From Primulina eburnea (lineage: Eukaryota > Streptophyta > Magnoliopsida > Lamiales > Gesneriaceae): 64,000 bases of DNA. The stretch is from NCBI RefSeq assembly GCF_022965805.1, contig NC_133105.1, forward strand, positions 31,185,589 through 31,249,588. Reading direction: 5' to 3'. The notes under the pieces are model-generated. The model did not search any database and was not told the DNA's origin. It saw nothing but the letters and a program-made list of their open reading frames with translations. Made by a program: the position numbers and the translations under genes. This document shows, in pieces, positions 2,811 to 24,180 of this stretch (the stretch's first letter is position 1; the number at the start of each line of letters is the position of its first letter).

Positions 2811-3049
2811 AAATCTGATTATCACACTGATTAGTACACAATCAATATCATCTGTCTCAGCCCTCCTCTGATCATAACCTCTGATCGAGAATCGGTTCTG
2901 ATTCAGGCTTGAAATGCTGTAAATCAATTCAGATAATACAACACAACATATAATAGGGAAAGCAATAATCATGCTAGCATCTCAAAAGCAAGGAAGATGA
3001 CTCGATCTACCCCGCTCATTCTATTCTATCTCAGTCTACAGAACCTACT
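2811..3049 (-). other. Untranslated leader of element A
   Basis: About 240 bases between the primer-binding site and the gag start. A nearly identical leader lies in element D (23922-24163), and the plus-strand counterpart is in G (55543-55788). No ORF or other recognisable signal is present. Confidence 0.7.
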
Positions 3050-3061
3050 GCTCTGATACCA
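3050..3061 (-). other. Primer-binding site of element A (tRNA-Met type)
   Basis: The minus strand reads TGGTATCAGAGC, complementary to the 3' end of plant initiator tRNA-Met. It lies five bases from the LTR end. It primes minus-strand DNA synthesis. Confidence 0.9.
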
Positions 3062-3066
3062 CCTGT

Positions 3067-4876
3067 TGTGGGGACCCGGGCTCTAACTCTATTCTTTTGG
3101 GATTTATCTTTGTTCGAAAATGTGGGTCAAAATTTTGCTTTTAACTTTAATTAAAATGTATTAACTAAAGCATAACATATCTCGATAGAAATTAAACAAC
3201 GTAATGTACATACAAGTCTGTTCGTACAAACATACACTAGTGTTCAAATGACAACTACAAACTTAAGTAGTACAAGTTTCATAAGAAAACACTAGTAATC
3301 TGCAATGCCCGAGATCTCCACGCTATCATCATCTCTCATCTAGCTCGTGACCCCGATCCTGCCCCACCTGTTGCCATGCACACATACAGACACGACAACA
3401 GCCGGATAACTCCGGTGAGAACATATCCCAGTATAAAACATGGATGCATGCAATGTAATAAATCATATACAAATGCATAACATAAATCAAGTAACATGAA
3501 TATAAATCTACACATGTAGTAGAATACAAATCTGTATTCAACATTCAAATCTTGACTCGACTCTTTTCTAATCTAGGGATCTCGGTGTGAATAAGACGGT
3601 CTGTTACCTACCCAACCACTCGGGGCAACGGTACGTCTTATTCCTAGACTTCGGTCAACTCTGTATCGAGGGTCTACACATATAGCAAATCTGCTCCTAT
3701 GCGTCGATACACCGAAACGTCTAGTTTTTGGCAAGTCTGCCAATCTCTCCTATCTCAGGACTCGAATATAAATCAATAAACAAGGCATTACATAATCAAA
3801 TGTAATAACAATCTAGTATGTGATTTAGGGAAACTCGTATCAAATCTGAATCGAGTTGTGCAATCCCGTGACCACATGAATTATACATTTCTTGTCGCAC
3901 TGTCTGTCTAGATCTTGAATCAAATGTCAAACCTGTTACTTCAAATCTGAAATGGCGATATACAAATGTTCTATATCAAACCACAACTCAAGCAAATCTT
4001 GGAATAATCAATAATCAGTCTTGCTACAAATTGATGGTATAACGGCGTATTCTCGCAATACCGATCAACTCAAACAATAATACACAATCATAATTCATTC
4101 CCAACAACTCATAATCTCATCTACACCTCAATCCACCAGCTAGAATCTGTAAAATCTTCACATAATACATGCTGGAATTTCGAACAAAAGCATACGATAT
4201 CCGGAAATCAATCTGATAACGAATCTACGATGCTCGATATACCAAGAACACATATTTCTAACAAAATCATAATTTCCCCAATACATAGATTTCGAACCAT
4301 GCTGAAAAGGAGATATACTTACATCCTTTTGAAGCTAGTGAAGCAAGGAACTCAAATCTATACATGGACTAGAATTTGGATGGGTAAATCTTGCACAAAT
4401 GATTTCTAAGCCATGAAGAAATTGAGATATCTAAGCTTGCTCTCGGTTCATCCTTGCTGAAAGTGGAGAAGAGTGATTCAGCATCAATCCATATATATAT
4501 ACATGCCATGTGTCAACATTAAAATCAAAGGTGGCAATCTCGCATGCAGACCGCGGGTGCGGTGACTCAAGAGTGCGGGTGCGCTGTGCTTACGGCGAGT
4601 TTATCCAAAAATGTAGCACCTAGACCGCGGGTGCGGTTCTTACATGACCGCAGGTGCGGTCTCACACTGCGGGGGCGGTCTTGCTAACACCGCAGGTGCG
4701 GTGTCTGTTCGCACAAATTCACCAATTTCTGTCCTCTACACCGCGGGTGCGGTAGTCTTAGCACCGCGGGGGCGGTGTGGCTTCGGCCATGCTTCAAAAA
4801 TTCCACTCTAAATATCATGCATTCTCATGGTTTCAAGTCTCACATCGATGACAACAGATAATTCTCGAGCCTTACA
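3067..4876 (-). repeat. 5' LTR of Tekay-like element A
   Basis: On the minus strand this 1810-bp LTR starts TGTAAGGCTCGAG and ends GGGTCCCCACA. It abuts the leader of copia B on the right. The five bases after it (ATTGG, 4877-4881) are the expected target duplication: the uninterrupted copia leader at 48345 reads straight through this point. It holds a GC-rich motif array at 4549-4779. The ORFs predicted inside are chance frames. Confidence 0.85.
4549..4779. repeat. GC-rich ACCGCGGGTGCGGT array in LTR A
   Basis: Several copies of a 14-base unit, some degenerate, are spaced tens of bases apart in otherwise AT-rich LTR sequence. Each unit has a 5-bp inverted repeat (ACCGC/GCGGT) and a central CCGCGG palindrome. 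Similar arrays occur in LTRs D, L, O, P, G and H. Confidence 0.8.
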
Positions 4877-5757: not shown

Positions 5758-8700
5758 TTGACAATGTCATCAATTCGCAACCCGTTTTCCGTTATTCTCG
5801 AAAAACACGTTCTAACCGGACCTAACTATATCACTTGGCTAAGAAATCTAAAGATTGTCTTGAACTCGGAGAAAATCGCATACACACTGACTGAGTCGCC
5901 CCCTGATGAGGCTCCGACTAACTGCAGTCCCGAGGAACTGCAGACCTACAAGGATTGGTGCGACCATGACTTGAAGGCCAAGTGTTATATGCAGGCTTCG
6001 ATGAACGATGAGCTGCAAAGGCGATTCGAGGATGCTAAGAATGCTGCTGACATTCATATGCACCTCAAGGAGCTCTTCGGTGAGCAGACTCGGCCTTTGA
6101 GGCATGCCACAGTAAAGGAGCTGATCACTTTACGCATGCGAGATTGGACTTCGGTCCATGAGCATGGCCTGAAGTTGATTGGGCTCGTGGACAAGCTCGT
6201 TGGCATGGATTTGATCTTGCCATCGGAGTTGACCACGGATGTGCTACTGTTGTCACTGCCAAACTCGTTCGATCCTTTTGTGGTGAATTTCAATATGAAC
6301 AAGCTCGAGCCCAGCATTGAAGAGTTGGTGAACATGCTTGTGACCTTTGAGTCCACAATCAAAAAGGAGAAGTCGGTTCTTTATGTGGGCTCTTCATCTG
6401 GCACGAAGACCGGTCCACCTGGGAAAGGAAAGAAGCGTTCTTTCAAGCGCCCCAAGAAGTGCGAGCCCTTTAAGAGGCAGACTCCGAGTCCCGTAGTGGC
6501 AGCCGCGCCAGCCAAGGCTGAGAAGACAGTTGACATCTGTCATCACTTCAAGAAGACTGGACATTGGAGGCGAAACTGCAGGGAATATCTTGCGCAGAAG
6601 GGTTCTGGCAAGGGTATGTTCTATATTGAAGTAAATATCTCGATTAATTCTACTTCTTGGGTATTAGATACCGGCTGTGGCTCACATCTCTGTAATGATT
6701 TGCAGGTGATGGGAAGAAGTAGGAGGCTCCGAGAGGGTGAGACCTTCCTGAGGATGGGCAATGGAGCAAGGGTTGCTGCCAAAGCCGTAGGAGATGTTTA
6801 TTTAATATTGAACAATGATTTTAAGCTTGTTTTGAGATATGTTTTGTATGTACCAGACTTGGTTAAAAACATTATTTCCATTTCTATGCTTGATATTGAT
6901 GGATTTTCTTGTTTATTTGGCAAATGTGTTTGCAATATTTACAAGAATGAATGTTTAGTTGGTACTGGTGAACTTGAAAACAATCTCTACACCTTAAAAT
7001 TAAAAGATATTCCACTTAACAATGTCCAAACGATAACAACAACAAATAAGCGCAAACAAGATACTCTTAATTCGGCACAATTATGGCATGCTCGATTAGG
7101 TCATATTTCCCTAAGAAGGATGAACAAGCTAGTGGGAGTTGGCATGTTTGATATGTCCGATATTAATGCTCTCACGACTTGTGAATCCTGTCTAAAAGGA
7201 AAGATGACCAAAATTCCCTTTAAGGGCCATGCGGAGCGAGCCAAAGGGTTATTGGATTTGATCCATACCGACGTGTGCGGTCCACTTAGCATCACCACTA
7301 AGCATGGACATTCCTACTTCATCACCTTTACCGATGACTTTTCGAGGTATGGGTATATGTATTTGATGAAATACAAGTCTGAAGCCTTTGAAAGGTTCAA
7401 AGAATTCAGAAGTGAAGTAGAGAAACAATTGGGACGAAGCATCAAGACACTTCGATTGGATCGAGGTGGTGAGTACTTGAGTGCCGAGTTCCAAGAGTAT
7501 CTTAGAGAGAATGGGATTCTCTCGCAATTGACTCCGCCCGCTACACCGCAGTTGAATGGTGTTTCGGAGCGTCGTAACCGAACTTTGATGGACATGGTTC
7601 GGTCTATGATGGGGTTCACGGAGTTGCCGCCATCCTTTTGGGGATATGCGCTTGAGACAGCGGCACTGTTATTGAACAATGTCCATACAAAAGCAGTTGA
7701 TAAGACACCATATGAGATATAGATGGGTAAGCCACCTAAATATTCTTATTTTAGAATATGGGGTTGCCCTGCTTATGTGAAGCAGGTAGTGGGAGATATA
7801 TTGGACCGTCGATCCATTTTATGTTACTTTGTGGGATATCCAAAGAATTCAGCTGGATATTATTTCTATCATCCCAAAGAAACAAAAGTGTTTGTTTCTA
7901 GGAATGCAACCTTTTTGGAAAAAGAATTTCTATTGGATAGAAAAGGAGAGATGATAGAACTCGAAGAGGTTCGAGAAACACCCAAAGTTGTAGAACCCAC
8001 ACCCGAGGAGCCAAGTGAGGAGATACAAGCTCCTAGAAGAACCGAGAGAGTCTCGAGACCACCTGTGAGGTATGGTCTGCTTCTTGAAGATGGCCATGAT
8101 GAGCCTCATCTTGGATGTGATCCAAGGACCTTCAAGGAAGCGTTATCGGATGCCGATTCATCCAAATGGCTTGAAGCAATGGAATCTGAGATGAATTCCA
8201 TGCATTCAAACCAAGTGTGGAATCTCGTGGATCCACCTGAGGGAATTGTTCCCATAGGGTGTAAATGGATTTACAAGAGGAAACTTGGGGCGGATGGGAA
8301 GGTGTTGACCTTCAAGGCGCGATTGGTAGCAAAAGGGTATACTCAAAAACAAGGTATTGACTATGAGGAAACCTTTTCTCCAGTTGCAATGTTCAAGTCC
8401 ATTAGGATTTTGCTAGCCATAGCTGCATGGTATGACTATGAGATATGGCAGATGGATGTTAAGACAGCCTTCCTTAATGGGTATATTAAGGAAGAGATTT
8501 ACATGTCTCAACCTGAAGGGTTTACATCTATCGGAAGTGAGCATATGGTATGCAAACTTCAAAGATCTATTTATGGTCTTAAGCAGGCATCTAGGAGTTG
8601 GAACCTCAGATTCGATAGTACAATCAAAGAGTTTGGTTTTACTAAGAATCCTGAGGAACCCTGTGTATATAAGAAGGTCAGTGGGAGTGCTGTGACATTC

Positions 8701-9696
8701 CTTGTTCTTTATGTTGATGACATTCTACTCATTGGGAATGATGTAGGAATGTTGCAATCAACTAAGATATGGTTAGCAAGTAAGTTCTCAATGCAGGACT
8801 TGGGTGAAGCATCTTTTGTATTGGGAATACAGATCTATAGAGATAGATCAAAAAGATTGCTTGGTCTCACCCAGTCCACATACATTGATACCATCGTGAA
8901 GCGGTTCTCGATGGATGAGTCCAAGAGAGGACATCTACCAATGTGTCATGGCGTGTCCCTATCCAAGTCTATGTCTCCCAAGACTGATGCAGAGATAGCG
9001 GCGATGACACGAATTCCGTATGCTTCGGCTATTGGTAGTATCATGTATGGCATGATATCTACACGTCCTGACGTAGCACTTGCACTAAGTGTAGTGAGTA
9101 GATATCAATCCAACACTGGTCTTCCACACTGGAAAGCTGTGAAAGACATCCTCAAGTATTTGAGAAGGACCAATAAGTTGTTTTTGGTCTATGGGGGTGG
9201 AGAACTAAAATTGGAAGGCTATACCGACTCTAGCTTCCAAAGCGATGTTGATGACTCGAAGTCAACCTCCGGATTCATATTCATGCTCAATGGTGGTGCT
9301 GTCTCTTGGAAGAGTTCCAAGCAAGACAGTACTGCGGATTCCACCACTGAGGCAGAATACATTGCTGCATCGGCTGTAGCAAAGGAGGCTGTTTGGATTA
9401 GGAATTTCGTCCAAGAGTTGGGCGTCATTCCAAATGAAGTTGCTCCTATCCCGGTGATGTGCGACAACACGGGAGCCATAGCTCAGGCGAAGGAGCCAAG
9501 GTCTCATCAGAAGTCCAAACACGTATTGAGAAAGTACCACATCCTCAGAGAGATCGTGGAAAGAGGAGATGTCGTGATTGACAAAGTCGGCTCCGCAGAT
9601 AATGTTGCTGATCCACTAACTAAGCCTTTACCAGGACCATCGTTCGAGAAGCATCGCGAATCAATGGGTCTGAAGTATATGGGTAGTTGGCTCTAG
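5758..9696 (+). pseudogene. Ty1/copia gag-pol polyprotein with one in-frame stop (element B)
   Basis: A single frame of 1312 codons is interrupted only by TAG at 7720-7722. The related copy E has TGG there, so this is one Trp-to-stop change. Order: gag (residues 1-250), zinc knuckle (about 261-274), protease DTGCGSHLC near 304, integrase with HTDVCGP, LRLDRGGEY and NGVSERRN (505-605), reverse transcriptase with YVDDILLIG near 985, RNase H with TDSSFQ and STTEAEYIAA, ending at the TAG at 9694-9696. The knuckle reads CHHF where CX2C is expected (copy E has CHHC), a second likely lesion at codon 264. The copia order (integrase before RT) is clear. The lineage is probably Tork/TAR/Angela-like, which I infer without an alignment. 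Confidence 0.92.
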
Positions 9697-9710: not shown

Positions 9711-10844
9711 TGTTAGAGTAGGTGCACGTCGAGCCAAGTGTTGGCCGACTGTTCACGATGAAACTCTTTGTATAAACGATCTTTATTTTAATAATATTTG
9801 AATTTATTAATTTGGCGCATCTTTATCTTTATACCCATGCTAGTTGCATAGATAAAGTCCTTGAATATACAAATAGTAGAAAGAATATGGGATGCTCATA
9901 TGATGAGTATCATGAAACTCATATTTGGAATACTGTATATTCTAAACCGTTCCTAGTCGATTCAGCCGCCACTAAGAAGGATAAAGGCCGCTCGAGTTAG
10001 AGACTAGTATCTGCGATGTGAGTACCATGTTTCATTGGTAGGGGACATTGTGATGTCCGAGCATGCAGATAGGTGCTCCTGGTAGAGTGCACTGAACAAC
10101 CCTCTATAAAGGACTTTCCAAGTGGTTCTCACTTATCGAGTGGAAAATGTCCTAGTTTATGGTTGTACACCATTAGTCCTTATGACCCGGGACAACATTG
10201 AGACTCTATGTGCTAGCGTTTCACTTTGACTTGTTTACCGACTCTTATGGGGTCATCAGGTGGCAAGGTTGGGTGTTACGGCGAAACATATAGGAGTCGA
10301 TGCATTGTAGCCGGGGATTCACCGCTTACCTACGGGTATGGATATCCTATGTGTTTTTCATGTATGTGTGGGTTGAAATCTCTGATCAGAGTATGGTGGT
10401 AATTATGAAAGGGGTTTCATAGATTACACCATCGATGCAACCACAACATGACACATAGTATCGATTCATTGACAACTCTCGATAAACCAATAGTTGTCGA
10501 ATCGGTCGGGATATATGAGTTGAAGGGACCGTACTGTACGCTAACCATAATTGAATGGTTCTTGCAGGCACTATCATGTGATACCTAGGGAATCACGTAA
10601 GCGATGCTGCTAGGCGTTTAACGTGATTGGTTGGGTACTATCAGACTTGAGTTCTGACGTTCTTACTATCAAGGAGTTGATAAGTAAGAATGGAGCAATT
10701 GGGGTATGCTCGAATAAGGACATGTTTAGTCCGAATCACATTGAGATGTGAACCACGGCTAGTTGTATCAATGAACCATTGAGGGCCACACAAGTATTGG
10801 CTTTGTAAACCCTGATGAGAAGTAAAATAGTTCAATGTGTTGAA
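9711..10844 (+). repeat. 3' LTR of copia B, left part
   Basis: Starts TGTTAGAGTAGG and matches the LTRs of E. It is interrupted at 10844 by Athila C and resumes after 22254. The 62-codon frame at 9812-10000 recurs in every copy, but the differences between copies change amino acids, so I do not call it a gene. Confidence 0.92.
10840..10844. other. Left target-site duplication of Athila C (TTGAA)
   Basis: TTGAA directly precedes the left LTR and recurs at 22250-22254 directly after the right LTR. This shows a clean integrase-mediated insertion into copia B's LTR. Confidence 0.93.
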
Positions 10845-11253
10845 TGTTGCGACTTTGATTGTTGCACTCCCAAGAGCAGGTTGTCCACAAGTAGTATAAT
10901 TCGGTGAGTCCGAATATCGTATCCACAGGGAAGCTAAGGTAATTACAAGTCCACTACAATGTCTTTTTGTTTTTGTTTTTGTTTCTTTTTAATTTTAATT
11001 GAATCTTTAATGGGTAAATTTTAATTGTTCAAATTTAAATTTAAGTAGTTGAGATTAAAGGATCCACTCTTGGTATTTTAATAAAGTTAACATTAACGAA
11101 AAATATTGAAATCCACTTAATAAAATGGTTCCAATATATTAAATAATCATATTTATATTATGTTATAAATTATAATCTTATAAGTACATAATATATACCA
11201 AAACTTATAAATGTGGTCAAGTATTTATTGTGCTATATATATTTGTAAACACT

Positions 11254-11530
11254 AAATCAAGGTTCCCACTTTAAATGGTTGGTAAAACCAAACAAACATT
11301 TAAATGGTACCAATAAATTAATACTATAATATATTCATATATAATAAATCAAGGAATCCAAGTTAAATGGTTGGTAAAACCAAACTAACATTTAAATGGT
11401 TCCAAGAATTTAATATTATAATATATTTATATATAATAACTCAAGGCATCCATTTTAAATGGTTGGTAATACCAAACTAACATTTAAATGGTTCCAAGAA
11501 TTTAGTGTAACATATAGCAACAATAAATCA
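11254..11530. repeat. Three 92-bp tandem units in Athila LTR
   Basis: Units begin with (A)TCAAGG at 11254, 11346 and 11438. Each carries TTAAATGGTTGGTAA and ACATTTAAATGGT and they differ by a few bases. The same triplet lies in the other LTR at 21089, 21181 and 21273. It lies downstream of the LTR TATA box in element sense, so in the transcribed R/U5 side. Confidence 0.8.
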
Positions 11531-11846
11531 AAACTCCCACTTATAAGTAGGGTATAAAAATGCTTAAAGAAATAAATATAACATAAACAATAAATAATGA
11601 TTAAATAATATAAAACATAGATTCTTACCTTATAATAACCTTATTATCATGCCAAGAGCTTCACCTTATCATCTCAACTTTAGGAAGTTAGCTATTCATT
11701 ATTCAAAGTGTAAAACTTTGAATATGAAATTAACATGCTAATTATATTTAAATGAAGAAATAAAAGAAAAATATAGAGAGAAATATTATGAACTCAAAGA
11801 TTTGTTCATAGAATGAGGGATATCTCAATACATTACAATGCACCCC

Positions 11847-11855
11847 TATTTATAG
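11847..11855 (-). promoter_or_regulatory. TATA box of Athila C 3' LTR
   Basis: The minus strand reads CTATAAATA, a good plant TATA box followed by GGGGTGCATTG. Transcription would start about 30 bases further toward lower coordinates. In this 3' LTR it could drive read-out into the copia LTR and element B. Confidence 0.65.
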
Positions 11856-12414
11856 CCAAATTTGGGGAGACAACCACAAATAAAATATTATTTTTTACAC
11901 ATAAGTCTTCATTGGTGTTCCAAGAAATTAATATTATATTGCACATCACTTTTGACAAGCATCTTCTCCGAATTTTCTTCTTCACATAAAATGAAACATG
12001 TGGATAATTGAGTTGTCTAGTTGTGGTATTTTTTTCAGAATATTTGACCAAGTAGTTTGAGAGATATGGTCAAAATACTAGAGCATGGTAAAACTGCCAC
12101 TCCTTCGGTAACTTTAATTGTTGCTTAATTTGATCCCAATTGTGAGAGGATTTTTATCTCATGCTTGCCACCAATATTGTAGATATTAACATCAACTTTC
12201 TACAGGTCCAAGAATCATCTTAATCCCATTTGCAACGCCAAGGTTATTCTTGTTTTATCGAACCTGTAAAAATAGTAAAAACTTATAATTACACAACAAC
12301 TTATATTTTATACAATTTATTATAAAACATATAATATTTAAAAATTTAATAAAACAAAAACTATATATTTATATTATAAAACATTTAATTAATGTACAAT
12401 TTTTATGTTTATCA

Positions 12415-12426
12415 CACCTCCCAACC
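12415..12426 (-). other. Polypurine tract of Athila C
   Basis: The minus strand reads GGTTGGGAGGTG directly before the 3' LTR start TGATAAAC. It primes plus-strand DNA synthesis. Confidence 0.8.
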
Positions 12427-12431
12427 AGCTT

Positions 12432-12450
12432 ATTGCTAGTCCCTAGCAAT
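12432..12450 (-). other. Hairpin ATTGCTAG...CTAGCAAT next to the polypurine tract
   Basis: A perfect 8-bp inverted repeat (ATTGCTAG/CTAGCAAT) around a 3-base loop lies upstream of the polypurine tract. From memory, a GCTAGGGACTAGCAA-type motif here is typical of Athila/Tat elements. It supports the lineage call and may be a 3'-end RNA signal. Confidence 0.7.
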
Positions 12451-13663
12451 TTAAGCGTTAATAGCAATACAAAACATATTGATTAATTTAAATAGAAATG
12501 TAATCAGAACTATCTAAGTGTTTAAATAAAATTTGAAAACTGTCAAAGTTATATCAAGATCATCATAATTATAATTTATGAAATAATTTGAGATGATTAA
12601 TTCAAAGCTTATTTTAGGTAGTTAAATGTACACGGCCTTCAGAAATTCCTAGTAAGAGTCTCAACTCCATATCCTCACAGGTTAATAAATGTTTCAATTT
12701 ATGGCAACGATTTCTCTCATGGAGTTGGAATACAGATAAATGCTCAGAAAAATGGTTTACAGAATGCAGACAGACAAACGAGCCAAACTAATCAAAAGAT
12801 AGAAAATCAATTGATTTAAAATCCAGTTGTTCTTATTATATTTTTTTTTCCTGATTTTTTTTTTTTTTTACATCATGGAATCAGACTAAGTTTATGCTTT
12901 TTGACCACATATTTATTTAATTTGTACAATGTATTTCTCTCTTTCTTTTTTTATTTTTTTTTTATTTTTTTATTCTTATGAGAGAAAAATGGGTCGCAGC
13001 ATATAACTTAAAAATTACATAGATCTTCAACATCTTTCTTTTTGTATTTTTCTTTTTTTTTCTTTTTTTTTTCAGGAAATATATATTTTTTTTTTCAAAA
13101 TAAGAACTCAAGATCTAAACAATAGATAGTCTCTCTCATGATCAATAAAGGCTCGAAAGCTGTTTTCTCAGTCCTCTCCACTCACTCACAAAATATGTGT
13201 GAGTTCAAAAATTTTAGGCACTCTTATAAGGTATATCTTGGGCCATATACTTTACTACCTAATTTTATCACAATGGTTAATCACTCAAAAAGATTTCATA
13301 AATCATATTTTTATATTGATCAGAATATTAAAAATGACCTTTTTTCAAATAAAATTTAAACATTCTTAAATAGATTAATGCATGTTCTAATTTAAATCTT
13401 TCAAATATGTAATGTATGACATTTTTGCAAAAAATTACTAAGGTACAAACAATAAACATGGTTTTATTTTAAAATAATATTTAATTTTTTTTTAAATTTG
13501 TTTTTTTTTTTTTTATATGTGTTCTCCCCCCAATCAGAATATGACATTGTCCCTAATGTCAAAATAGCTATTAATAAAGAGTACATAATGAAAGAGATAT
13601 CACCTGGAACTTTATTGAAGATAACAAACTGAAACAAACGCAAACCAATCCACGACTTTTGAA
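12451..13663 (-). other. AT-rich 3' non-coding region of Athila C
   Basis: About 1.2 kb with long poly-T and poly-A runs (12840-13100, 13480-13515). The frames at 13138-13359 (plus) and 13464-13667 (minus, TTG start, overlapping the LOG stop) have no recognisable features. I see no env-like gene, which Athila relatives may carry downstream of integrase. Confidence 0.65.
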
Positions 13664-14302
13664 TCAATGATCCAACTTCCTTTTCTTACTGCTTGATTGC
13701 GACCAATTGATCTTTGTTATCATCGGATCAGGCTTATGAACAAAAGCTTCCAAATCATCAATTAATTGATCGGCAGTCGAAGCACAGATGAGCATCCGTC
13801 GTGAATTTTCTGAAATGAAATTCTGTTCCACAGCTTTATCAAGAAATGTCAACAAACTGTCATAATAATTATTGATATTCAACAAGCCCACGGGTTTATT
13901 ATGGATATTAAGTTGTGCCCAAGAAACAGTGTGAAAAATTTCTTCTAATGTACCAAAACCACCTGGTAGTGCGATAAAAGCATCAGAATTTTCAATCATT
14001 TGAGTGATTCTTTCATACATAGAAGAAACTTTTAATTCCTCCCCAATCGTAACACCTGTAATATTTCCTTCAGCTAAAGCTATAGGAATAATACCCAATA
14101 CCTGACTACCTCCAAGATGAGCAGATGTTGAAACAGATCCCATTAACCCAATATTACCTCCCCCATATACCAAGTGAATTTTTCTCTCAGCCAATATCTT
14201 TCCAAGATTATTCGCTGCTTCTACAAACACTTCATTTTTTCCAGGACTCGACCCACAAAATACACAAATATTTTTCAATGTTTGTGCAGAGGATCCAGTC
14301 AT
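13664..14302 (-). CDS. LOG: LOG-family cytokinin riboside 5'-monophosphate phosphoribohydrolase captured by Athila C
   Basis: 212 codons, ATG at 14302, stop at 13664-13666. LOG enzymes release active cytokinin bases from their riboside monophosphates in one step, mostly in cytosol and nucleus. Visible features: ICVFCGSSPG (12-21), YGGGNIGLMG (46-55), MYERITQM (95-102) holding the conserved Arg, and the signature PGGFGTLEE (113-121) with the catalytic Glu, then SWAQLNIHNKPVGLLN. Length fits plant LOGs (about 210-230 aa). The usual MHxRK motif reads MYERI, so His and Lys are changed. The C-terminus has a basic SSKKRKLD that could be a nuclear signal. Plant LOG genes normally have several introns; this copy has none, so it was probably captured from an mRNA. 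It lies in element sense 210 bp after the virus-like ORF. Family assignment is strong; activity is untested. Confidence 0.93.
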   Translation of the reverse strand: MTGSSAQTLKNICVFCGSSPGKNEVFVEAANNLGKILAERKIHLVYGGGNIGLMGSVSTSAHLGGSQVLGIIPIALAEGNITGVTIGEELKVSSMYERITQMIENSDAFIALPGGFGTLEEIFHTVSWAQLNIHNKPVGLLNINNYYDSLLTFLDKAVEQNFISENSRRMLICASTADQLIDDLEAFVHKPDPMITKINWSQSSSKKRKLDH

Positions 14303-14325
14303 GTTTTTACTTTCCTTTTTTTTTT

Positions 14326-14340
14326 CTGCGAAAGTAGAAA
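14326..14340 (-). promoter_or_regulatory. Possible 3' splice acceptor before LOG
   Basis: The minus strand reads a pyrimidine-rich tract ending CTACTTTCGCAG, with the AG at 14327-14326, 24 bases before the LOG ATG. It fits a plant 3' splice site and could produce a spliced subgenomic mRNA for LOG from the LTR promoter. Confidence 0.45.
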
Positions 14341-14352
14341 GAAAGATGAGAG

Positions 14353-14360
14353 ATTTTATA
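14353..14360 (-). promoter_or_regulatory. TATA-like box upstream of LOG
   Basis: TATAAAAT on the minus strand lies 50 bases before the ATG and is followed by a pyrimidine-rich CTCTCATC initiator-like stretch. It could be a promoter of LOG's own, and is an alternative to splicing. AT-rich sequence makes chance matches common. Confidence 0.35.
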
Positions 14361-14512
14361 GGGGTAATATGTTATCATGACAAAACTATGGGTCACAGCT
14401 GTAAACAGAATAAATAGTAAAAAAATAATGACACACATGCTTATAAACAGTAGTGTGATTGTGGCTCACAATTTTCCTCTGGTTTTACGTCCAGAAACGG
14501 CTTCAACGCCTT
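14361..14512 (-). other. Spacer between the two captured ORFs
   Basis: About 150 bases, AT-rich, with no ORF. A second TATA-like TTTATAAG lies near 14442-14449. Nothing else is recognisable. Confidence 0.5.
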
Positions 14513-15058
14513 CTATGAGTCGAGGATATGCTTCCCATCCAATTTTCTTATAAATTGGCAAACAGGGTCTTTTTTAGTCAGATTCCCAAGACTATGACGC
14601 TCATCTTGAAATTGTTTCCATAAACGGAGAAGTTCAATATGCACATGTCCACTAGAATGCGTCTCAAGAGTCAATAAGATGTTATCTAAAGACTCCTTAC
14701 TCAGCCCATTCTTAATGAAATCAATTTTATCTTCTCTGTTATTGGAAACACATCCCAAAGATCTGCATCGTTTGTCACAAGTCCATCTTGCACACTTATG
14801 ACAAACCCCTAAACTTTTGGCCCTTCGTTTTTTCGCATAAGTGCTTTTTCCTAATCCAGGCAAATACCGAATAAGCAATGATTGTGGAACTTCTCCTCCT
14901 AATCGGACCTTAGCTTCTATTACAAGACGAATATCTTCTGGAATTCCTTTTTGCATTAGTAATCTCAATCTTTCACACCTTCCTGCATAAATTTTTCTTA
15001 GAACATTTTCAGAAACAGAGGGAAAATATTTACAAATTTTTGAGAGAATTTCATCCAT
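14513..15058 (-). CDS. Basic Cys-rich protein resembling Betaflexiviridae nucleic-acid-binding proteins, in Athila C
   Basis: 181 codons from the ATG at 15058; a longer frame to 15109 depends on a TTG start, and the ATG fits the N-terminal MDEILSKI better. Residues 1-60 look helical. Next come a basic patch KSTYAKKRRAK (71-81) and a Cys cluster C86, C89, C94, C98, C103 (CX2CX4CX3CX4C), then KIDFIKNG (111-118) and a charged C-terminal region. A (S/T)-x-Y-A-(R/K)-(R/K)-R-R-A basic motif just before a CX2C cluster, then a Phe-x-x-x-Gly stretch, is the layout of the carlavirus/vitivirus nucleic-acid-binding proteins. Those bind RNA, and several suppress RNA silencing. The match is from motif memory only. 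It is not an Athila env (no signal peptide or membrane segment) or a normal gag knuckle (no CCHC). Alternatives are a host zinc-binding protein or an element-specific ORF. Confidence 0.62.
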   Translation of the reverse strand: MDEILSKICKYFPSVSENVLRKIYAGRCERLRLLMQKGIPEDIRLVIEAKVRLGGEVPQSLLIRYLPGLGKSTYAKKRRAKSLGVCHKCARWTCDKRCRSLGCVSNNREDKIDFIKNGLSKESLDNILLTLETHSSGHVHIELLRLWKQFQDERHSLGNLTKKDPVCQFIRKLDGKHILDS

Positions 15059-15242
15059 TTTGAAAAGAAAAGAAATGATTTTTTTTTTTTTAAATTTTTG
15101 TATCAGCAATTGTGGGAAACTGATTTAACCGACTATGAGAGTCACGGAGTACCGTTATCCGCCATTTAACCGGGAAAATAAAAAGATTAAGAAAACCTGA
15201 AATAAAAACAAACAATAATCAAATGCAACACAAAAAAAAAAA
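15059..15242 (-). promoter_or_regulatory. Pol-to-ORF spacer with a strong 3' splice-acceptor-like site
   Basis: Just after the pol stop the minus strand reads GTTTGTTTTTATTTCAG followed by G, with the AG at 15198-15197: a near-ideal plant 3' splice site. The virus-like ORF starts 139 bases later. Some Athila relatives (barley Bagy-2) make spliced env mRNAs with an acceptor in this position, so the captured ORFs may use the same route. Confidence 0.5.
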
Positions 15243-18200
15243 TCAAGGATCAGAAAGGGAAATAAACTCTTCTTGAAAGATTTCATTTTCCAAAAATGGT
15301 TTAAGCCTTTGTCCATTCACTTTAAAAACATCACCATTTTTAGGATTTTCAATATCCACAGCTCCATAAGGATACACATGCTTTATAACATATGGGCCTG
15401 TCCATCTTGATCGTAATTTTCCTGGGAATATGTGAAGTCGAGAATTATAAAGCAAAACTTTTTTACCAATCTCAAAAGATTTTCTAAGAATTGTTTTATC
15501 ATGAAATGATTTGATTTTTGCTTTATAAATCCTTGAATTCTCATACGCATCATTTCTGAGTTCATCAAGTTCATTAAGTTGCAATTTACGCAATTTGTTG
15601 GCATCATCCATGCTTGAATTTAAAGTTTTTATCGCCCAATAAGCTTTATGTTCCAATTCCACAGGCAAATGACAATGTTTTCCATAAACCAACCTATAGG
15701 GAGACATATTCAATGATGTTTTAAAAGCTGTTCGATATGCCCACAGTGCATCATTAAGTCGCAGAGACCAGTCTTTTCTATTTGAGTTAACAGTTTTTTC
15801 CAAAATTTGCTTTATCTCCCTATTAGCTAATTCAACTTGTCCATTTGTTTGAGGATGATAAGGAGTTGTTACTTTGTGAGTAATACCATATTTTTTCATT
15901 AATGAAGCAAATGGTTTATTAACAAAGTGAGTTCCCCCATCACTTATCATAGCTCGAGGAATTCCGAATCTACTAAAAATATTTTCTTTCAAAAATTTGA
16001 TGACGATTTTATGATCATTTGTTCGACATGGAATTGCCTCTATCCATTTGGAAACATAATCAACTGCAACTAAAATATACAAGTATCCAAACGACGGTGG
16101 AAAAGGTCCCATAAAATCTATTCCCCAACAATCAAATATTTCAATTTCAATGATAGGATTCAAAGGCATCATGTTTCTTTTTGAAATCGCACCCAATTTT
16201 TGACAATTTTCACAGATCTTGCAGATTTCGTGGGTGTCTTTAAACAAAGTGGGCCAATAAAATCCACACTGCAAGATTTTTGCAGCTGTTTTCTTTGAAG
16301 AAAAATGTCCCCCGCATGCTTCTGAATGACAAAATTTAATGACACTACTTACCTCATTGTCGGGTATGCAACGTCGAAAAATTTGATCCGGACAATACTT
16401 GAACAGATACGGATCATCCCAATAAAAGTTTTTTACCTCATTCAAAAATTTTCTTTTATCTTGGGAACTCCATTGCGGTGGCATTTTTCCTGTCACAAGA
16501 AAATTTACTATGTTAGCAAACCAAGGTGTAGTAGTAACTGAAAATAGATGTTCATCAGGAAAATTATCGTTAATTGGTGTCATTTCAAAAGATGATCCTG
16601 TTACTAGTCTCGATAAATGATCGGCTACGACATTCTCGGTTCCTTTTTTATCTTTGATTACAATGTCAAATTCTTGGAGCAACAAAATCCATCGTATCAG
16701 TCGTGGCTTTGCATCCTGTTTGGTCAACAAATATCTAATAGCAGAATGATCAGTAAACACGATAGTTGTTGATCCAATCAAATAAGAACGAAATTTATCT
16801 AATGCAAATATTACAGCAAGTAGCTCTTTTTCAGTTGTGGAGTAATTCATTTGAGCATTGTTTAAAGTTCTACTTGCATAATATATCACATAAGGCTTAC
16901 CGTTTCTTCTTTGACCCAATACTGCACCGACTGCATAATCACTCGCATCGCACATGATTTCAAATGGTAAAGACCAATCAGGAGGTTGCATGATAGGAGC
17001 TGATGTTAAATGTCGAATGATTTTATCAAAAGCATTTTGACATTCTTGAGTCCACTCAAATGCACTGTCTTTTGTTAAGAGGTTACAAATGGGTTTAGAG
17101 ATTAAACTAAAGTCCTTTATAAACCTCCTATAAAATCCAGCATGTCCCAAAAATGAGCGAATTTCTTTAATGGTTTTTGGAGGGGGTAAATTGGCAATGA
17201 CATCAACTTTTGCTTTATCGACTTCAATTCCATGAGATGACACGACATGTCCCAAAACAATTCCAGAAGTAATCATGTAATGACATTTTTCCCAATTTAA
17301 AATAAGACCTTTTTCCTCGCATCTTTTTAAAACTTTTTCCAAATTTTCAAGACAATTATCAAATGTATTCCCAAAAACAGTTAAATCATCCATAAAAATT
17401 TCCAAACAATTTTCAACCATGTCGCAGAAAATGCTTAGCATACATCTTTGAAATGTTGCTGGGGCATTGCATAAACCAAATGGCATCCTTCTGAATGCAA
17501 ATGTTCCAAAAGGACATGTGAATGTAGTTTTTTCTTGATCTTCGAGTGCAATGGGAATTTGATAATAGCCTGAATATCCGTCAAGAAAACAGTAGTAGGG
17601 ATGACCTGCTACTCTTTCTAAAATTTGATCCAAAAATGGTAATGGAAAATGATCTTTTCTAGTGGCGTCATTTAATTTTCTATAATCAATACACATCCGC
17701 CAACTAGATGGGACTCGACTTGTTAACAATTCACCTTTTTCATTTTTTATCACTGTGATGCCAGATTTTTTTGGAACTACTTGTGTTGGGCTTACCCACT
17801 TACTATCAGAAATAGGGTAGATAATTCCAACATCAAGTAGTTTGAGAACTTCAGTTTTCACAACATCTTTCATGTGTGGATTTAATCTCCTTTGTGGTTG
17901 TTGAGATGTTTTTGCATTTTCTTCTAAGTGAATTTTGTGTGTGCAAATTAGTGGATTAATGCCCTTAAGATCTTTTAGTGTCCAACCAATTGCATTTTTA
18001 TGTCTTTTAAGCATATCAACTAATTTACCTTCTTGATTACTTGAGAGTTTGGAAGAAATTACCACCGGATATGTTTCATCTTCTCCAAGAAATGCATACT
18101 TCAATTCTTCTGGCAAGGGTTTTAACTCCAATACTGGTGGTTCGTCTTTGTTCTCATATTTTTCATCAAATTCTTTCTCTGATCCTGGTAACGAGTGATA

Positions 18201-18636
18201 CCTGAAAAAATCGTCAAGATCAATTTCAATATTTTCTTTAACAGTTTCAATTGAACAAATATCTAATTGATCACGAGTACTCCCTTCTTGAATGTTTTCT
18301 TCCACAAGAGTTTCAATAAGATTTTCATCTTCACTTTCATCTCCTTTGTCATGTGGTTGCTTACAAAGATTAAAAACATTGAGCTCCAAGGTCATGTTAC
18401 CAAATGACAACTTCATTATTCCATTCCTGCAATTTATAAGAGCATTAGAAGTTGCTAAAAATGGACGACCTAAAATTACAGGAATTGCATTACAAGCTTC
18501 AATAGGTTGTGTATCTAAAACTATGAAATCGACAGGATATACAAAGTTATCAACTTGGACCAACACGTCTTCTACCATACCTCTTGGCACTTTAACAGAT
18601 CTATCAGCAAGTAAAAGTGTTACCGAAGTAGGTTTT
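15243..18636 (-). CDS. Athila C pol: protease end, RT, RNase H, integrase
   Basis: The frame is open from about 18636 to the stop at 15243-15245. The first in-frame ATG (18590, MPRGM) lies inside the protease and is not a real start. Counting from it: end of protease (ILGRPFL, 39-45), RT (about 225-480) with FMDD at 399-402, RNase H with CDASDYAVG at 547-555, integrase zinc finger H755/H762/C793/C796, integrase core D825, D884, E920 ([24 protein letters not shown]), and a C-terminal RWTGPYVIK motif near 1062. All catalytic residues are present. The frame is +1 relative to gag. Confidence 0.93.
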
Positions 18637-20490
18637 AAGCTCGCCTAGATTGAGTTCTTGATAAACTGAATATGGAAGTAAATTCACACTAGCTCCAAGG
18701 TCAAGCAAGGCTTTTTTAATCTTTCGTTCTCCAATAATACACGAAATAGTAGGACAACCAGGGTCTTTGTATTTCAAAGCATTATTATTTTGAATGATTG
18801 CACTTACTTGTTCGGCTAAAAATGCTTTCTTTTTCACATTCAATTTTCTTTTCACAGTGCACAAGTCTTTCAAAAATTTGGCATATGATGGTACCTGTTT
18901 TATTGCATCTAATAAAGGAATATTAACTTTTACTTGTTTAAAAATATCATATATATCAGAATTCAAATTTGATTTTCTTGTATTTTTCAATGCATGAGGG
19001 AATGGTGGTGACACTGTCTGTTGAACCTCCTCTTCGCAAGTTATGGGTTCCACTTCCTTACCCTTTGGAGTTGATTTATCATCATCTTCACAAGGTTCAA
19101 GAATGGATTTTTCCACAACCTTACCACTTCGAAGGGTAATAACAGATTTTACCTGATCCATCGGTTGAGTTCCAGAAGTTCCAATTTGTGTATGATGATC
19201 CTTGGGATTAGGCAGAGGTTGTGAAGGAAATTTACCTTTTTCATGAACATTAAGTGCAGATGCAAATTTAGCAAGAGTATCTTTCAAGTCTGTCATGGTT
19301 TGAGCAGTTTGAGTATTGATAGACTCTTGCTTTGCAATGAAAGAATTCAATGTATCTTCCAAATTTCTTTTCGGCGGAGGAACATAAGGTGCATAATTTT
19401 GAAAATTTTGTTGATTTTGAAAATGTGGTTGCGGAAATTGTGCAGCATTATCATTCCTCCAACTAAAATTTGGATGATTTCGCCAACCTGGATTGTAATT
19501 TTGAGAAAATGGTTCAAAATTTGGCCTTTTGAAATTGTTCAAAACATTGGCTTGCTCATGGAGACATTCTTTAAAAGAGGGCAAAGTGGGACAATCTTTT
19601 GTAAAATGATCACTTGTATCACAGATGTGACACACAATTTCTTGAACAGATTTTAATTGACCATTCATTTTCAATTCAAGTGCCTCAACTTTTCTTGCCA
19701 AAGAGGTAAATCTAGCTTGAAGATCATGTTCATCTTTGAGAGTGTACATACCTCCACCAGATGTAGGAGATTGAATCTTGTTTGATGGTTCGATTGTACC
19801 TATAGTGTCCCAATTTTGAGCATTTTCAGCTAATGAATCGAGATACTCAATTGCCTCGTTCGGATCTTTATCTTCAAATGTTCCATTACACATAAATTCA
19901 ACCATTTGCCTATCTTTAGGTGTTAAGCCTTCATAAAATTGAGAAACAACTCTCCAAATTTCAAAACCATGATGTGGACAAAGATTAAGCAATTCTTTGT
20001 ATCTATCCCAACACTGATAAAAAGTTTCTCCTTGTTTTTGAGTGAAAGTGATGATTTGCCTTTTGAAAGAATTTGTTCTATGAGATGGAAAAAACTTTTT
20101 CAAAAATTGTTGTTGCAATTCATCCCAAGTTCGAATGGATCCCGATCTAAGATTTTGTAGCCAAGTTTTAGCTTTATCTTTTAAAGAAAAAGGAAAAAGC
20201 TTAAGGCGAATGGTGTTCATGCTACAATTTAGATCATTATATGTGTTGCACACTTCTTCAAACTCTCGTAAATGCATGTATGGATTTTCAGAATCTAAGC
20301 CATGAAAGTTGGGTAAAAGTTGGATAATACCAGGCTTAAAATTGAAATGAGATGCATCAGGGGGAAAAACTAGACATGAAGGTGCACTAGTACGTGTAGG
20401 ATTCATGTGATCTCTAAGTGTTCTTCGTCTATCATGATCATGTTGAGATTGAATTTCATCTTCATTTTCTTGGATGGGTTCTTCCGCCAT
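18604..20490 (-). CDS. Athila C gag and start of protease
   Basis: I start at the ATG at 20490 ([12 protein letters not shown]); the track frame extends to 20625 but that stretch is leader-like and hydrophobic. Visible parts: gag core with [18 protein letters not shown], a zinc knuckle [14 protein letters not shown] (CX2CX4HX4C) near residues 285-300, and the protease site [10 protein letters not shown] near 18685-18705 (Leu in place of Thr is usual in this lineage). The frame then shifts and stops at 18604-18606. The shift maps to an AAAA run at 18633-18636; skipping one base rejoins pol. In related elements gag-pol is, as far as I know, usually one frame, so this is a one-base insertion, a sequencing error or a programmed +1 shift. 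Confidence 0.9.
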
Positions 20491-20655
20491 GTTTTGTAAA
20501 AATAAAGGGTTATTTCGAATGAGTCGACCACTAAGTGTACGTGACCAAATGCTCATGCAAATGCAAAACAAAAAGGAAAAAAAAAACACACAAAAGCAAT
20601 AAAAAGAAAAATAAACTTTAAACAATATTAAATAGACTTGAAATTAAATTATACT
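20491..20655 (-). other. Leader of Athila C
   Basis: Short T-rich leader between primer site and gag. A donor-like GAAGTATAA lies directly after the primer site and could pair with the acceptors at 15197 and 14326; this is a guess from one short match. Confidence 0.5.
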
Positions 20656-20676
20656 TCCCCGGCAACGGCGCCAAAA
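20656..20676 (-). other. Primer-binding site of Athila C (tRNA-Asp type)
   Basis: The minus strand reads TGGCGCCGTTGCCGGGGA, complementary to the 3' end of plant tRNA-Asp. It lies a few bases inside the 5' LTR, as expected for Athila/Tat elements. Confidence 0.85.
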
Positions 20677-20679
20677 ACT

Positions 20680-22249
20680 TGTTGCGACTTTGATTGTTGC
20701 ACTCCCAAGAGCAGGTTGTCCACAAGTAGTATAATTCGGTGAGTCCGAATATCGTATCCACAGGGAAGCTAAGGTAATTACAAGTCCACTACAATGTCTT
20801 TTTGTTTTTGTTTTTGTTTCTTTTTAATTTTAATTGAATCTTTAATGGGTAAATTTTAATTGTTCAAATTTAAATTTAAGTAGTTGAGATTAAAGGATCC
20901 ACTCTTGGTATTTTAATAAAGTTAACATTAACGAAAAATATTGAAATCCACTTAATAAAATGGTTCCAATATATTAAATAATCATATTTATATTATGTTA
21001 TAAATTATAATCTTATAAGTACATAATATATACCAAAACTTATAAATGTGGTCAAGTATTTATTGTGCTATATATATTTGTAAACACTAAATCAAGGTTC
21101 CCACTTTAAATGGTTGGTAAAACCAAACAAACATTTAAATGGTACCAATAAATTAATACTATAATATATTCATATATAATAAATCAAGGAATCCAAGTTA
21201 AATGGTTGGTAAAACCAAACTAACATTTAAATGGTTCCAAGAATTTAATATTATAATATATTTATATATAATAACTCAAGGCATCCATTTTAAATGGTTG
21301 GTAATACCAAACTAACATTTAAATGGTTCCAAGAATTTAGTGTAACATATAGCAACAATAAATCAAAACTCCCACTTATAAGTAGGGTATAAAAATGCTT
21401 AAAGAAATAAATATAACATAAACAATAAATAATGATTAAATAATATAAAACATAGATTCTTACCTTATAATAACCTTATTATCATGCCAAGAGCTTCACC
21501 TTATCATCTCAACTTTAGGAAGTTAGCTATTCATTATTCAAAGTGTAAAACTTTGAATATGAAATTAACATGCTAATTATATTTAAATGAAGAAATAAAA
21601 GAAAAATATAGAGAGAAATATTATGAACTCAAAGATTTGTTCATAGAATGAGGGATATCTCAATACATTACAATGCACCCCTATTTATAGCCAAATTTGG
21701 GGAGACAATCACAAATAAAATATTATTTTTTACACATAAGTCTTCATTGGTGTTCCAAGAAATTAATATTATATTGCACATCACTTTTGACAAGCATCTT
21801 CTCCGAATTTTCTTCTTCACATAAAATGAAACATGTGGATAATTGAGTTGTCTAGTTGTGGTATTTTTTTCAGAATATTTGACCAAGTAGTTTGAGAGAT
21901 ATGGTCAAAATACTAGAGCATGGTAAAACTGCCACTCCTTCGGTAACTTTAATTGTTGCTTAATTTGATCCCAATTGTGAGAGGATTTTTATCTCATGCT
22001 TGCCACCAATATTGTAGATATTAACATCAACTTTCTACAGGTCCAAGAATCATCTTAATCCCATTTGCAACGCCAAGGTTATTCTTGTTTTATCGAACCT
22101 GTAAAAATAGTAAAAACTTATAATTACACAACAACTTATATTTTATACAATTTATTATAAAACATATAATATTTAAAAATTTAATAAAACAAAAACTATA
22201 TATTTATATTATAAAACATTTAATTAATGTACAATTTTTATGTTTATCA
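20680..22249 (-). repeat. 5' LTR of Athila C
   Basis: 1570 bp, the partner of 10845-12414 with one substitution. It carries the 92-bp triplet (from 21089) and the TATA box at 21682-21690. It drives the element's genomic transcript toward lower coordinates. Confidence 0.93.
21682..21690 (-). promoter_or_regulatory. TATA box of Athila C 5' LTR
   Basis: CTATAAATA on the minus strand, at the same place as in the other LTR. It would start the transcript covering gag, pol and both captured ORFs. Confidence 0.7.
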
Positions 22250-23193
22250 TTGAACGGCTTATAAATGTGTTTATAAGCGTAAAGAAAAATAGAAGTATGA
22301 TTTCTATGAGAGAAATATAAATTTTAATTTATGGAAGTGTTCCTAAGATTAAAATTTGGCCAAGTAAATAATGTAGTTGAAAATTGTGATTTTCATAAAC
22401 ATTATTGAGGACTAAATTAAATTAATTTAATTGTTGAATTAATTAAACACTAGTGGACCTAGTAGAGTCTAAATAATTAAATTAATTCAAGTGTTGAATT
22501 AATTAAATAATATTGAGCCTTGTAGAGCTCAATTAAAATAATTATTTAACTAGTGGGACTTGAATAATTTCAAGTAGTATTTAATTAATCTCAAATGTGT
22601 TTGAGATAATTAAAATTTAGTCCATGGTTTTTAATGTGTTAAAAACCATATAATATATGTGAGACATGCTAGGGTTTGCATGCTTGGGAGGTGAAGAGTC
22701 TTGATTACTTTTTATTAAAAAAATTACAAAGGCATGCAACTTTTCTCCCAACTTTTCCCACACCCAAGACTAGACTTCACTACACACTCTACACTCTCAC
22801 TTGGCCGAAATATTGGAGGAGTTTTCTCTCAATTTTCTTCCATTTTTGTTCTTCATTTTCTTGGAGAATAAAATCTTCTCATTGAAAAATCCTCTTGATT
22901 TTCTAGTGCAAATCAAGAGGGGTTTTACCTTGCTAGTGGTGGACTTATTTCTTGAAGGAAAGAAGGAGGAGCTTGTAGATTTGCCTACCGAAGAAGAGCT
23001 TTGTTGTTTACAACAAAGTTGGTGCCATTCATCAACCTTGAGAGGTTGATAGGTAAATAATCATTTGAACATCCCATGAATGTGATTATTTTGTAAATAT
23101 TACACACTATACTAGGTGGCCGAAATTTTGCTTGTAAATTTAAAATTTTTGACTTCCGTTGCGCTTCCGGCCACCGTAACCGGTCCGCTTTCA
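22250..23193 (+). repeat. 3' LTR of copia B, right part
   Basis: Begins with the second TTGAA target copy (22250-22254) and continues the copia LTR to its end GGTCCGCTTTCA. A TATA-like TATAATATAT lies near 22650. With 9711-10844 the LTR is about 2.07 kb. The next bases (TTTCT, 23194-23198) are B's expected target duplication in element D. Confidence 0.9.
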
Positions 23194-23921
23194 TTTCTTG
23201 CCACTACTGCTTCCACTATCATATCGAGGAGGAGGTAGTGGAAACTGTACGACGGGCGGTGGCGGTCTCAAACCCTAAACACTATAGGAGGCTCCTCGCT
23301 GCCTAATCAGGCCAGCCTCTGCTCCCTTTGCTCGGTTCAGCGCCTCAGAAAAGGTGTTGGGTCGCCCCGTGTTCACTAAAGTGAAGATATCTGGATTAAA
23401 ACCATTTATGAACTGATCGGCAAATGCCTCATCATTCCCTGCTACATGTGGTGCAAATCGAAGCAAGGACGAGAATTTGGCAACATACTCCTCTATGTTC
23501 CATTGTCCCTGTCTCAAATTGACAAACTCTGCCCCTTTGTATTTTCGGTATGATACTGGAAAGAAACGTTGATAAATTCATCTTTAAAAACTTTCCAAGT
23601 AATATCAATACCTCGATGTTCTAGGGCTCATTTCGCCGTTAGCCACCACCTCTTGGCCATTTCTTGCAATTGATGCCCAATCAGCTTTACTCAACGTTCA
23701 TCGGAATAGGCATGTGATTCAAATAACATTTCTATATCATCCAGCCAGCTTTCGCAATCCGCTGCATTCTCAGTGCCTTTCAAGGTCAGGGGTCGGAACG
23801 ACTGAAACTGCTTCAACAGAGTCTCTATCGGGGTAGCGGTTACGTCAATCTGAGTACCTGACGTACTCCCCTGTTCTGGCACTTGTCCTGCAGCTGGTTG
23901 CGGTATCCTTCTAGGCGGCAT
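23194..23921 (-). pseudogene. Broken gag of Tekay-like element D
   Basis: Starts at 23921 with [13 protein letters not shown] and resembles element A's gag. Frame breaks occur near 23570-23640, leaving two pieces (23691-23921 and 23275-23517). Copia B cut it at 23193; the rest of D should lie left of the window beyond B's 5' LTR. Confidence 0.85.
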
Positions 23922-24163
23922 ATCTGGTTATCAAACCGGTTAGTACACAGTCTATACAAGCTGTCTCAGCCCTCCTCTGATCATATACCTCTGATCCAGA
24001 ATCGGTTCTGATTCAGTCTTGGCAATTATATGCTGTAAATCAACTCAGATACAATACAACACATAATAGGGAAAGCAAAAAATCATGCTAGCACATCAAA
24101 AGCAAGGAAGATGACTCGATCTACCCCGCTCATTCTATTCTATCTCAGTCTACAGAACCTACT
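23922..24163 (-). other. Leader of element D
   Basis: Matches the leader of A with small differences. No gene. Confidence 0.65.
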
Positions 24164-24175
24164 GCTCTGATACCA
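24164..24175 (-). other. Primer-binding site of element D (tRNA-Met type)
   Basis: TGGTATCAGAGC on the minus strand, five bases from the LTR end, as in A. Confidence 0.88.
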
Positions 24176-24180
24176 CCTGT

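Follow-up and report, generated by a model that had tools for sequence, protein, structure and literature searches.

A 64,000-nucleotide stretch of the Primulina eburnea genome (C5:31185589-31249588, hereafter the window) contains a very recently inserted, Athila-like Ty3/gypsy long terminal repeat (LTR) retrotransposon with two additional genes downstream of its integrase. One encodes a cysteine-rich protein (CRP) of the kind found in carlaviruses, the other a LOG-family protein. Both genes are constrained between element families, and a second family of the same genome carries them in the same order. In the reading that we favour, and to which we give about an even chance, the two genes constitute a virus-style accessory cassette through which the element acts on the host cell.

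The element spans positions 10845-22249 on the minus strand, reads from right to left, and looks complete. It is bounded by direct repeats of 1570 bp with TG...CA ends, the 5' LTR at 20680-22249 and the 3' LTR at 10845-12414 (both minus strand), which differ by 1 mismatch over their 1570 bp, and it is flanked on both sides by the target-site duplication TTGAA (10840-10844 and 22250-22254). Taking a general substitution rate of about 1e-8 per site per year, this single difference dates the insertion to an estimated tens of thousands of years ago, in agreement with the preliminary description of this DNA, which had called the element very recent. Six nucleotides inside the 5' LTR end lies the primer-binding-site-like sequence TGGCGCCGTTGCCGG (20659-20673, minus strand), presumably the complement of tRNA-Asp. 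The gag gene (18604-20625, minus strand; Retrotrans_gag PF03732, 3.9e-21, with a weak CCHC knuckle match) is followed by pol (15243-18644, minus strand), which encodes reverse transcriptase, RNase H and integrase (PF00078, PF17917/PF17919, PF17921 and PF00665); in the window copy the two overlap at 18604-18644 and lie in different frames around the protease. The paired LTRs, the target-site duplication, gag and the order reverse transcriptase-RNase H-integrase identify a Ty3/gypsy element. A Pfam search of pol at E<=1 detected no chromo family, which fits the Athila clade. The four main open reading frames (ORFs) gave no Pfam match to the Athila ORF-1 domain PF03078; the clade does not require it, and the figures given in PMC6317226 place it in 16% of Athila elements.

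Between integrase and the 3' LTR, two intact ORFs lie side by side in element sense, as first described: the CRP gene (15058-14513, minus strand, 181 aa) and the LOG gene (14302-13664, minus strand, 212 aa). The CRP starts at the ATG at 15058, which is common to its relatives and corrects the TTG start at 15109 given in the ORF list. The remaining ~1.25 kb between LOG and the 3' LTR is devoid of any ORF longer than 80 aa.

Further copies were sought in the 812 Mb genome assembly. Only the best candidates were scored in these searches, and match counts are therefore lower bounds. The LOG Pfam search returned at least 150 scored matches, the best of 1042 candidates, and the CRP search at least 150 out of 1429 candidates; 70 of the latter, including the window's own, are 100% identical to the window CRP. 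Of the 150 LOG matches listed, the 40 with the highest scores were each extracted with their surroundings as a 5.8-kb piece (family 1). In 37 of these 40 pieces CRP sequence, whole in general and broken or interrupted in a few, precedes LOG as it does in the window; the other three (L017, L020 and L037) have no CRP sequence upstream of LOG. Reciprocally, all 8 loci anchored on the CRP, which are top matches and include the window copy, had the CRP upstream of LOG. With the protein P0130 as query, a second, diverged family was found: 80 of 150 matches were 82-100% identical, the remaining 70, at 68%, corresponding to family 1. In 4 of 4 pieces sampled from those 80 matches (L057-L060, family 2), integrase-side pol is followed by the CRP and then by LOG, as in family 1, with identities of 81-84% for pol and 58-62% for the CRP (main stretches) and of 67% for LOG. 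This order in 37/40 and 4/4 pieces, together with 322 protein clusters matching the CRP, indicates that the pair is neither due to chance nor private to the window copy, an observation more general than the preliminary description had claimed. The pair looks old and co-inherited in at least two element families of P. eburnea, and both proteins have relatives in many plants.

The proposed kinship of the CRP with carlavirus-type proteins is supported by a match to Carla_C4 (PF01623; 2.4e-7, 31.0 bits, cut-off 20.9). The other family suggested for it, Viral_NABP (PF05515), scored 22.4 bits with the window copy, under its cut-off of 23. At E<=0.01, 47 of 48 aligned CRP relatives match Carla_C4 and 45 of 48 match Viral_NABP. 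The protein contains a Cys4 zinc finger, C86-x2-C89-x4-C94-x3-C98, preceded by the basic patch KKRRAK, and Cys86, Cys89, Cys94 and Cys98 are kept in 112, 117, 120 and 118 of 121 aligned rows, respectively. The 322 clusters were retrieved at E<=0.01, and the 120 listed among them include named hosts such as Xanthoceras, Populus, Rhamnella, Orobanche and Acer. In the Rhamnella gene model P0082, integrase-type sequence is fused to the CRP, and ORF length and key residues of both CRP and LOG are kept among relatives of several named plants. Like the CRPs of carlaviruses and other flexiviruses, for example p12 of Chrysanthemum virus B, the element protein combines a Carla_C4 match with a basic patch followed by a Cys cluster. 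Unlike them, it extends to 181 aa, with additional segments at both its N- and C-terminus, and is encoded by an LTR retrotransposon.

Structural and viral databases were searched as well. The better of our two CRP structure models (111 rows, pLDDT 68.5) retrieved from BFVD flexivirus proteins annotated as silencing suppressors or as binding nucleic acid at ranks 1, 2, 5, 6, 10 and 14 of 24, and at rank 4 a betaflexivirus protein named only HP; the best E value was 0.47, and none was significant (E<=0.001). No solved structure matched the CRP at E<=1. No CRP relative was detected among the viral contigs of IMG/VR, by single query or by alignment, nor among plasmid records. A profile of the zinc-finger core gave 292 matches at E<=10, and nearly all of the best 120 listed carry Carla_C4; the few that are named come from plants, plus one bacterial record that we take as contamination. 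Since no virus is named among the best 120 of these 292 matches, this search is neither for nor against a viral link. We read the kinship of the CRP to virus proteins as real but distant, and a transfer may have occurred from virus to element or from element to virus. Passages of PMC9650830 and PMC12172455 describe carlavirus CRPs as having nucleic-acid binding and silencing suppression activities, as well as a plant transcription-factor activity tied to cell size and proliferation.

The LOG protein matches PF03641 at 8.8e-38, and its nearest solved chain is Arabidopsis 2a33 (E 1.3e-63). Its PGGxGTxxE motif and catalytic Arg99 and Glu122 place it in the family, the residue roles in catalysis and in the prenyl pocket being taken from the account of CgLOG in PMC4979012. 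We aligned it with 120 listed relatives, which are the best of 7981 matches and no survey of all LOGs. Of the 121 rows, 116 retain Arg99 and 118 retain Glu122, suggesting that the protein is still likely to be an enzyme. Two prenyl-pocket positions are broadly replaced. In place of Lys100, 115 of 121 rows have Met, Leu or Ile, and 6 retain the Lys; in place of Glu125, 111 rows have His or Gln and 4 another residue, and 6 retain the Glu. The two changes are paired, the 6 rows with Lys being the 6 rows with Glu. We built a tree, by a quick method, of 68 rows comprising the window protein, three LOGs of solved structure and 64 of the 120 relatives, from which P0122, P0123, P0137 and P0160 (>260 aa) were omitted. 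A single branch (SH-aLRT 99) unites the 62 rows lacking the canonical M-x-x-R-K; outside it stand P0230, P0233 and P0234, with an unchanged pocket, and the Arabidopsis LOGs.

The C-terminus of these proteins is also distinctive. A basic cluster is found in 109 of 121 rows, and LxLxL within the last 12 residues in 99 of 121, mostly after the K/R cluster, versus 1 of 2047 control windows; 99 of the 120 relatives end exactly in [LM]xLxLxL. This tail looks like an EAR motif, a motif that binds TOPLESS corepressors. It is absent from the window LOG, which ends in KKRKLDH, and from the family 2 LOG, which ends in KKRKFM; the basic part is retained in both. The element LOG thus has in common with the plant LOG phosphoribohydrolases, Arabidopsis LOG3 (2a33) and LOG8 (1ydh), the family, the PGGxGTxEE motif and the catalytic Arg and Glu, and differs from them in the replacement of Lys100 and Glu125, in its basic C-terminal tail, which in most of the listed relatives includes LxLxL, and in being encoded by one uninterrupted ORF. 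Host LOG genes have introns. A few listed LOGs combine the unchanged Lys/Glu pocket with the lack of an LxLxL tail (P0122, P0123, P0160, P0230, P0233 and P0234, four of them named Xanthoceras), and perhaps represent an intermediate or a second element LOG lineage. The gene model P0122 contains gag-like sequence.

Selection was estimated between families by comparing the window with the family 2 pieces (NG86 with codon bootstrap). The ratio of nonsynonymous to synonymous rates (dN/dS, omega) was 0.08-0.09 for integrase-side pol (306-345 codons), 0.17-0.24 for the CRP (upper bounds 0.29-0.42) and 0.20-0.21 for LOG (upper bounds 0.30-0.32), at synonymous divergences (dS) of 1.24-1.30, 1.26-1.52 and 1.16-1.24, respectively, values above 1 that are near saturation for NG86. 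Several copies keeping both ORFs with dN/dS well below 1 had been proposed as support for a role of the pair, and this is what the comparison of the two families gave. These results support a long-term purifying constraint on both genes between families, and the similar dS values suggest that pol, CRP and LOG diverged together, and hence that the common ancestor of the two families had the pair. Recent changes were counted within family 1 over 38 copies, comprising the window and the pieces that remain after L017, L020 and L037 are set aside (37 in number); the pieces were chosen by LOG score, which lowers the LOG nonsynonymous count. Changes private to one copy gave omega values of 1.09 for pol, 1.01 for the CRP and 0.63 for LOG. 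Relative to the window, itself included, and with insertions invisible to the count, pol was free of stops and deletions in 6 of 38 copies, the CRP in 23 and LOG in 29.

Apart from the protein-coding signal, two short DNA blocks are nearly identical between the families. Block 1 (15141-15177, minus strand), in the spacer between pol and the CRP, matches the family 2 piece L057 at 36 of 37 positions, versus 23/65 and 40/82 for the spacer outside it, and a 24-mer of this block occurs in 42 of 60 sampled loci, some of which overlap. Exact searches of IMG/VR matched neither block 1 nor a degenerate pattern of the CRP C-end. Block 2 (14455-14583, minus strand) covers the 3' end of the CRP gene and 58 nt past its stop; it is identical at 121 of 129 positions between the window and L057 and includes a perfect run of 78 nt, the longest run in 2000 column shuffles being no more than 44. 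It is retained in L057, where the CRP frame no longer reads through, suggesting either a role as nucleic acid or gene conversion. No unusual RNA fold was found in the blocks, six folds giving z-scores between -0.52 and 0.42, and Rfam gave no match there. A single sub-threshold Rfam match was located elsewhere in the element, a snoR71-like sequence (RF00097, 38.4 bits, cut-off 40) at 19964-20072 on the plus strand, antisense to gag; either the element contains a snoRNA-like stretch or the Rfam family contains gag-derived sequence.

The region also carries candidate splice signals. We ranked 88 acceptor-like sites in the element interior with a simple home-made score. The first is a predicted 3' splice site at 14326 (minus strand), 24 nt before the LOG ATG, the second a predicted 3' splice site at 15197 (minus strand), 139 nt before the CRP ATG, and the third a predicted site at 14399, between the two genes. 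Among the predicted donor-like sites inside the 5' LTR, the best-scoring lies at 21463. In family 2, a strong acceptor is predicted before the CRP, at the same place as in the window.

An accessory cassette of this kind could work as follows. The acceptor-like sites predict that CRP and LOG would each be translated from their own spliced subgenomic mRNA. The CRP may enter the nucleus via its basic patch and bind nucleic acid, and could there dampen silencing of the element RNA or alter host transcription, as reported for carlavirus CRPs. LOG would cleave nucleoside 5'-monophosphates, most likely cytokinin ribotides, via its modified pocket, and its activity might favour dividing cells, where new insertions get inherited. 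A bolder version, which we consider unlikely, is that of an ancient two-gene nuclear cassette for host reprogramming, present in retrotransposons of several eudicot orders, in which a viral-type zinc finger targeting nucleic acid would be combined with a captured LOG with a rebuilt base-binding pocket and a nuclear tail ending in an EAR motif. In the cells in which it moves, one element would thereby rewrite silencing or transcription as well as hormone or nucleotide signalling.

Several observations weigh against an accessory cassette acting on the host. The growth and silencing mechanism is a reasonable hypothesis that we infer from sequence, and the LOG substrate should not be assumed. Indeed, three of the five prenyl-pocket residues differ in the window LOG (His97 to Tyr, Lys100 to Ile and Glu125 to His; Met96 and Trp129 are kept), so that its initial designation as a cytokinin-activating enzyme is less certain, and the idea that every element LOG is a plain cytokinin enzyme was rejected on the pocket replacements seen in the alignment. 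Although dN/dS is low between families, where the dS values approach saturation, constraint on both genes appears weak within the recent family. Changes present in at least two family 1 copies gave omega values of 0.26 for pol, 0.67 for the CRP and 0.70 for LOG, and those present in at least four copies 0.08 for pol (20 nonsynonymous, 69 synonymous), 0.70 for the CRP (7 and 3) and 0.54 for LOG (15 and 8). Shared and private changes did not differ for the CRP (p 0.27) or LOG (p 0.86), and both genes differed from pol in Fisher tests (CRP and LOG, respectively: p 0.007 and 0.003 for shared changes, p 0.004 and 0.0002 for changes in at least four copies). The CRP of family 2 stops earlier in L057 and L059, and its tail is altered in L058 and L060. 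Behind this change of the CRP end is an insert of ~84 nt, read directly only in L057, where it is followed by an intact block 2. The predicted acceptor before LOG is weak in family 2. A first CRP structure model (48 rows, pLDDT 59.5) had no flexivirus match in BFVD and no useful fold match. Finally, the assignment to the Athila clade is provisional.

Other explanations were considered. The LOG protein may have been repurposed, either hydrolysing nucleotides without chiefly activating cytokinin any longer, or serving as a nuclear docking protein that would recruit TOPLESS-type corepressors via its EAR-like tail. We regard this as somewhat unlikely, even though the paired replacements of Lys100 and Glu125 next to unchanged catalytic residues, the grouping of 62 of 68 tree rows on one well-supported branch and the LxLxL end of 99 of 120 relatives, mostly past the K/R cluster and nearly absent from control windows, all speak for it. 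The same catalytic Arg and Glu make an enzyme still likely, and the LxLxL tail is missing from the window copy and from the second Primulina family. Moreover, TOPLESS binding by EAR motifs is general background, and the relatives on which the pattern is read are the best-scoring fraction of the LOG matches.

The two genes could also be passive cargo, captured as a LOG mRNA of the host and a fragment of a viral CRP, now hitch-hiking and decaying. LOG in Athila-like elements is said to have been read as host-gene transduction by Steinbauerova et al., and the weak recent constraint, with shared changes behaving like private ones, would fit such a decay. However, the between-family omega of ~0.2 for both CRP and LOG already disfavours this explanation, as do the ORF length and key residues kept in relatives from several named plants, and we hold it to be very unlikely. 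Equally improbable in our judgement is that nucleic-acid signals, whether for splicing, export, packaging or reverse transcription, are the main reason why the region is kept, the CRP frame being partly incidental. Such signals could account for the identity of blocks 1 and 2, which exceeds that of the rest of the region, and for the persistence of block 2 in L057 outside the CRP frame. Yet the first 140 codons of the CRP, outside block 2, are still constrained (omega 0.17-0.18 versus family 2), neither an unusual RNA fold nor an Rfam match was found at the blocks, and a gene-conversion tract between the families could equally yield block 2. An accessory cassette acting on the host remains our preferred reading.

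The preliminary description knew of no retrotransposon with this pair. Steinbauerova et al. reportedly described two Athila-like elements with extra ORFs similar to LOGL4. In the part of PMC9289625 that cites these authors, LOG (YgdH) domains are recorded in Gypsy elements of Citrus sinensis and C. clementina and, without a count filter, also of Populus trichocarpa. LOG capture by a retrotransposon was therefore rejected as a novelty. Those LOG-bearing Athila-like and Gypsy elements resemble the window element in having a LOG-family ORF inside a Gypsy LTR retrotransposon; section 12 of PMC9289625 makes no mention of a CRP, a pocket change, a tail motif or conserved blocks. The same article describes an AlkB RNA demethylase in Gypsy elements of orchids, an added domain there proposed to serve the element; the enzyme is a different one, and the passages on these elements report no CRP. 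For the CRP or the CRP-LOG pair in retrotransposons, no report was found among the titles and abstract openings listed from open-licence papers. The pocket change of the element LOG, the EAR-like tail, the two DNA blocks and the acceptor-like sites are new here, no literature search having been aimed at the pocket, tail or blocks.

If the accessory-cassette reading is true, a plant mobile element would use virus-style accessory genes, with an enzyme of hormone-pathway type selected in the element's interest. The function of the extra 3' ORFs in Athila-like elements, a long-standing question, would become directly testable, one product being of enzyme type and the other having virus relatives, and both being assayable. 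In addition, some plant 'LOG' annotations correspond to element copies: P0130, a Primulina eburnea model that bears the name LOG3-like, is a member of a family with at least 80 matches in the genome, and the Populus models P0164 and P0175, named LOGL10, share the changed LOG pocket.

Other repeats surround the element in the window. A copia-type element, its type judged from sequence, lies at 5758-9696 on the plus strand, with two adjoining ORFs of 654 and 657 aa. Collinear direct repeats at 2161-3716 and 23255-24833, 76-94% identical, flank the copia-type and Athila-like elements, and repeat units containing ACCGCGGGTGCGGT are found at 4597-4785 and 25839-25986, ~21 kb apart.

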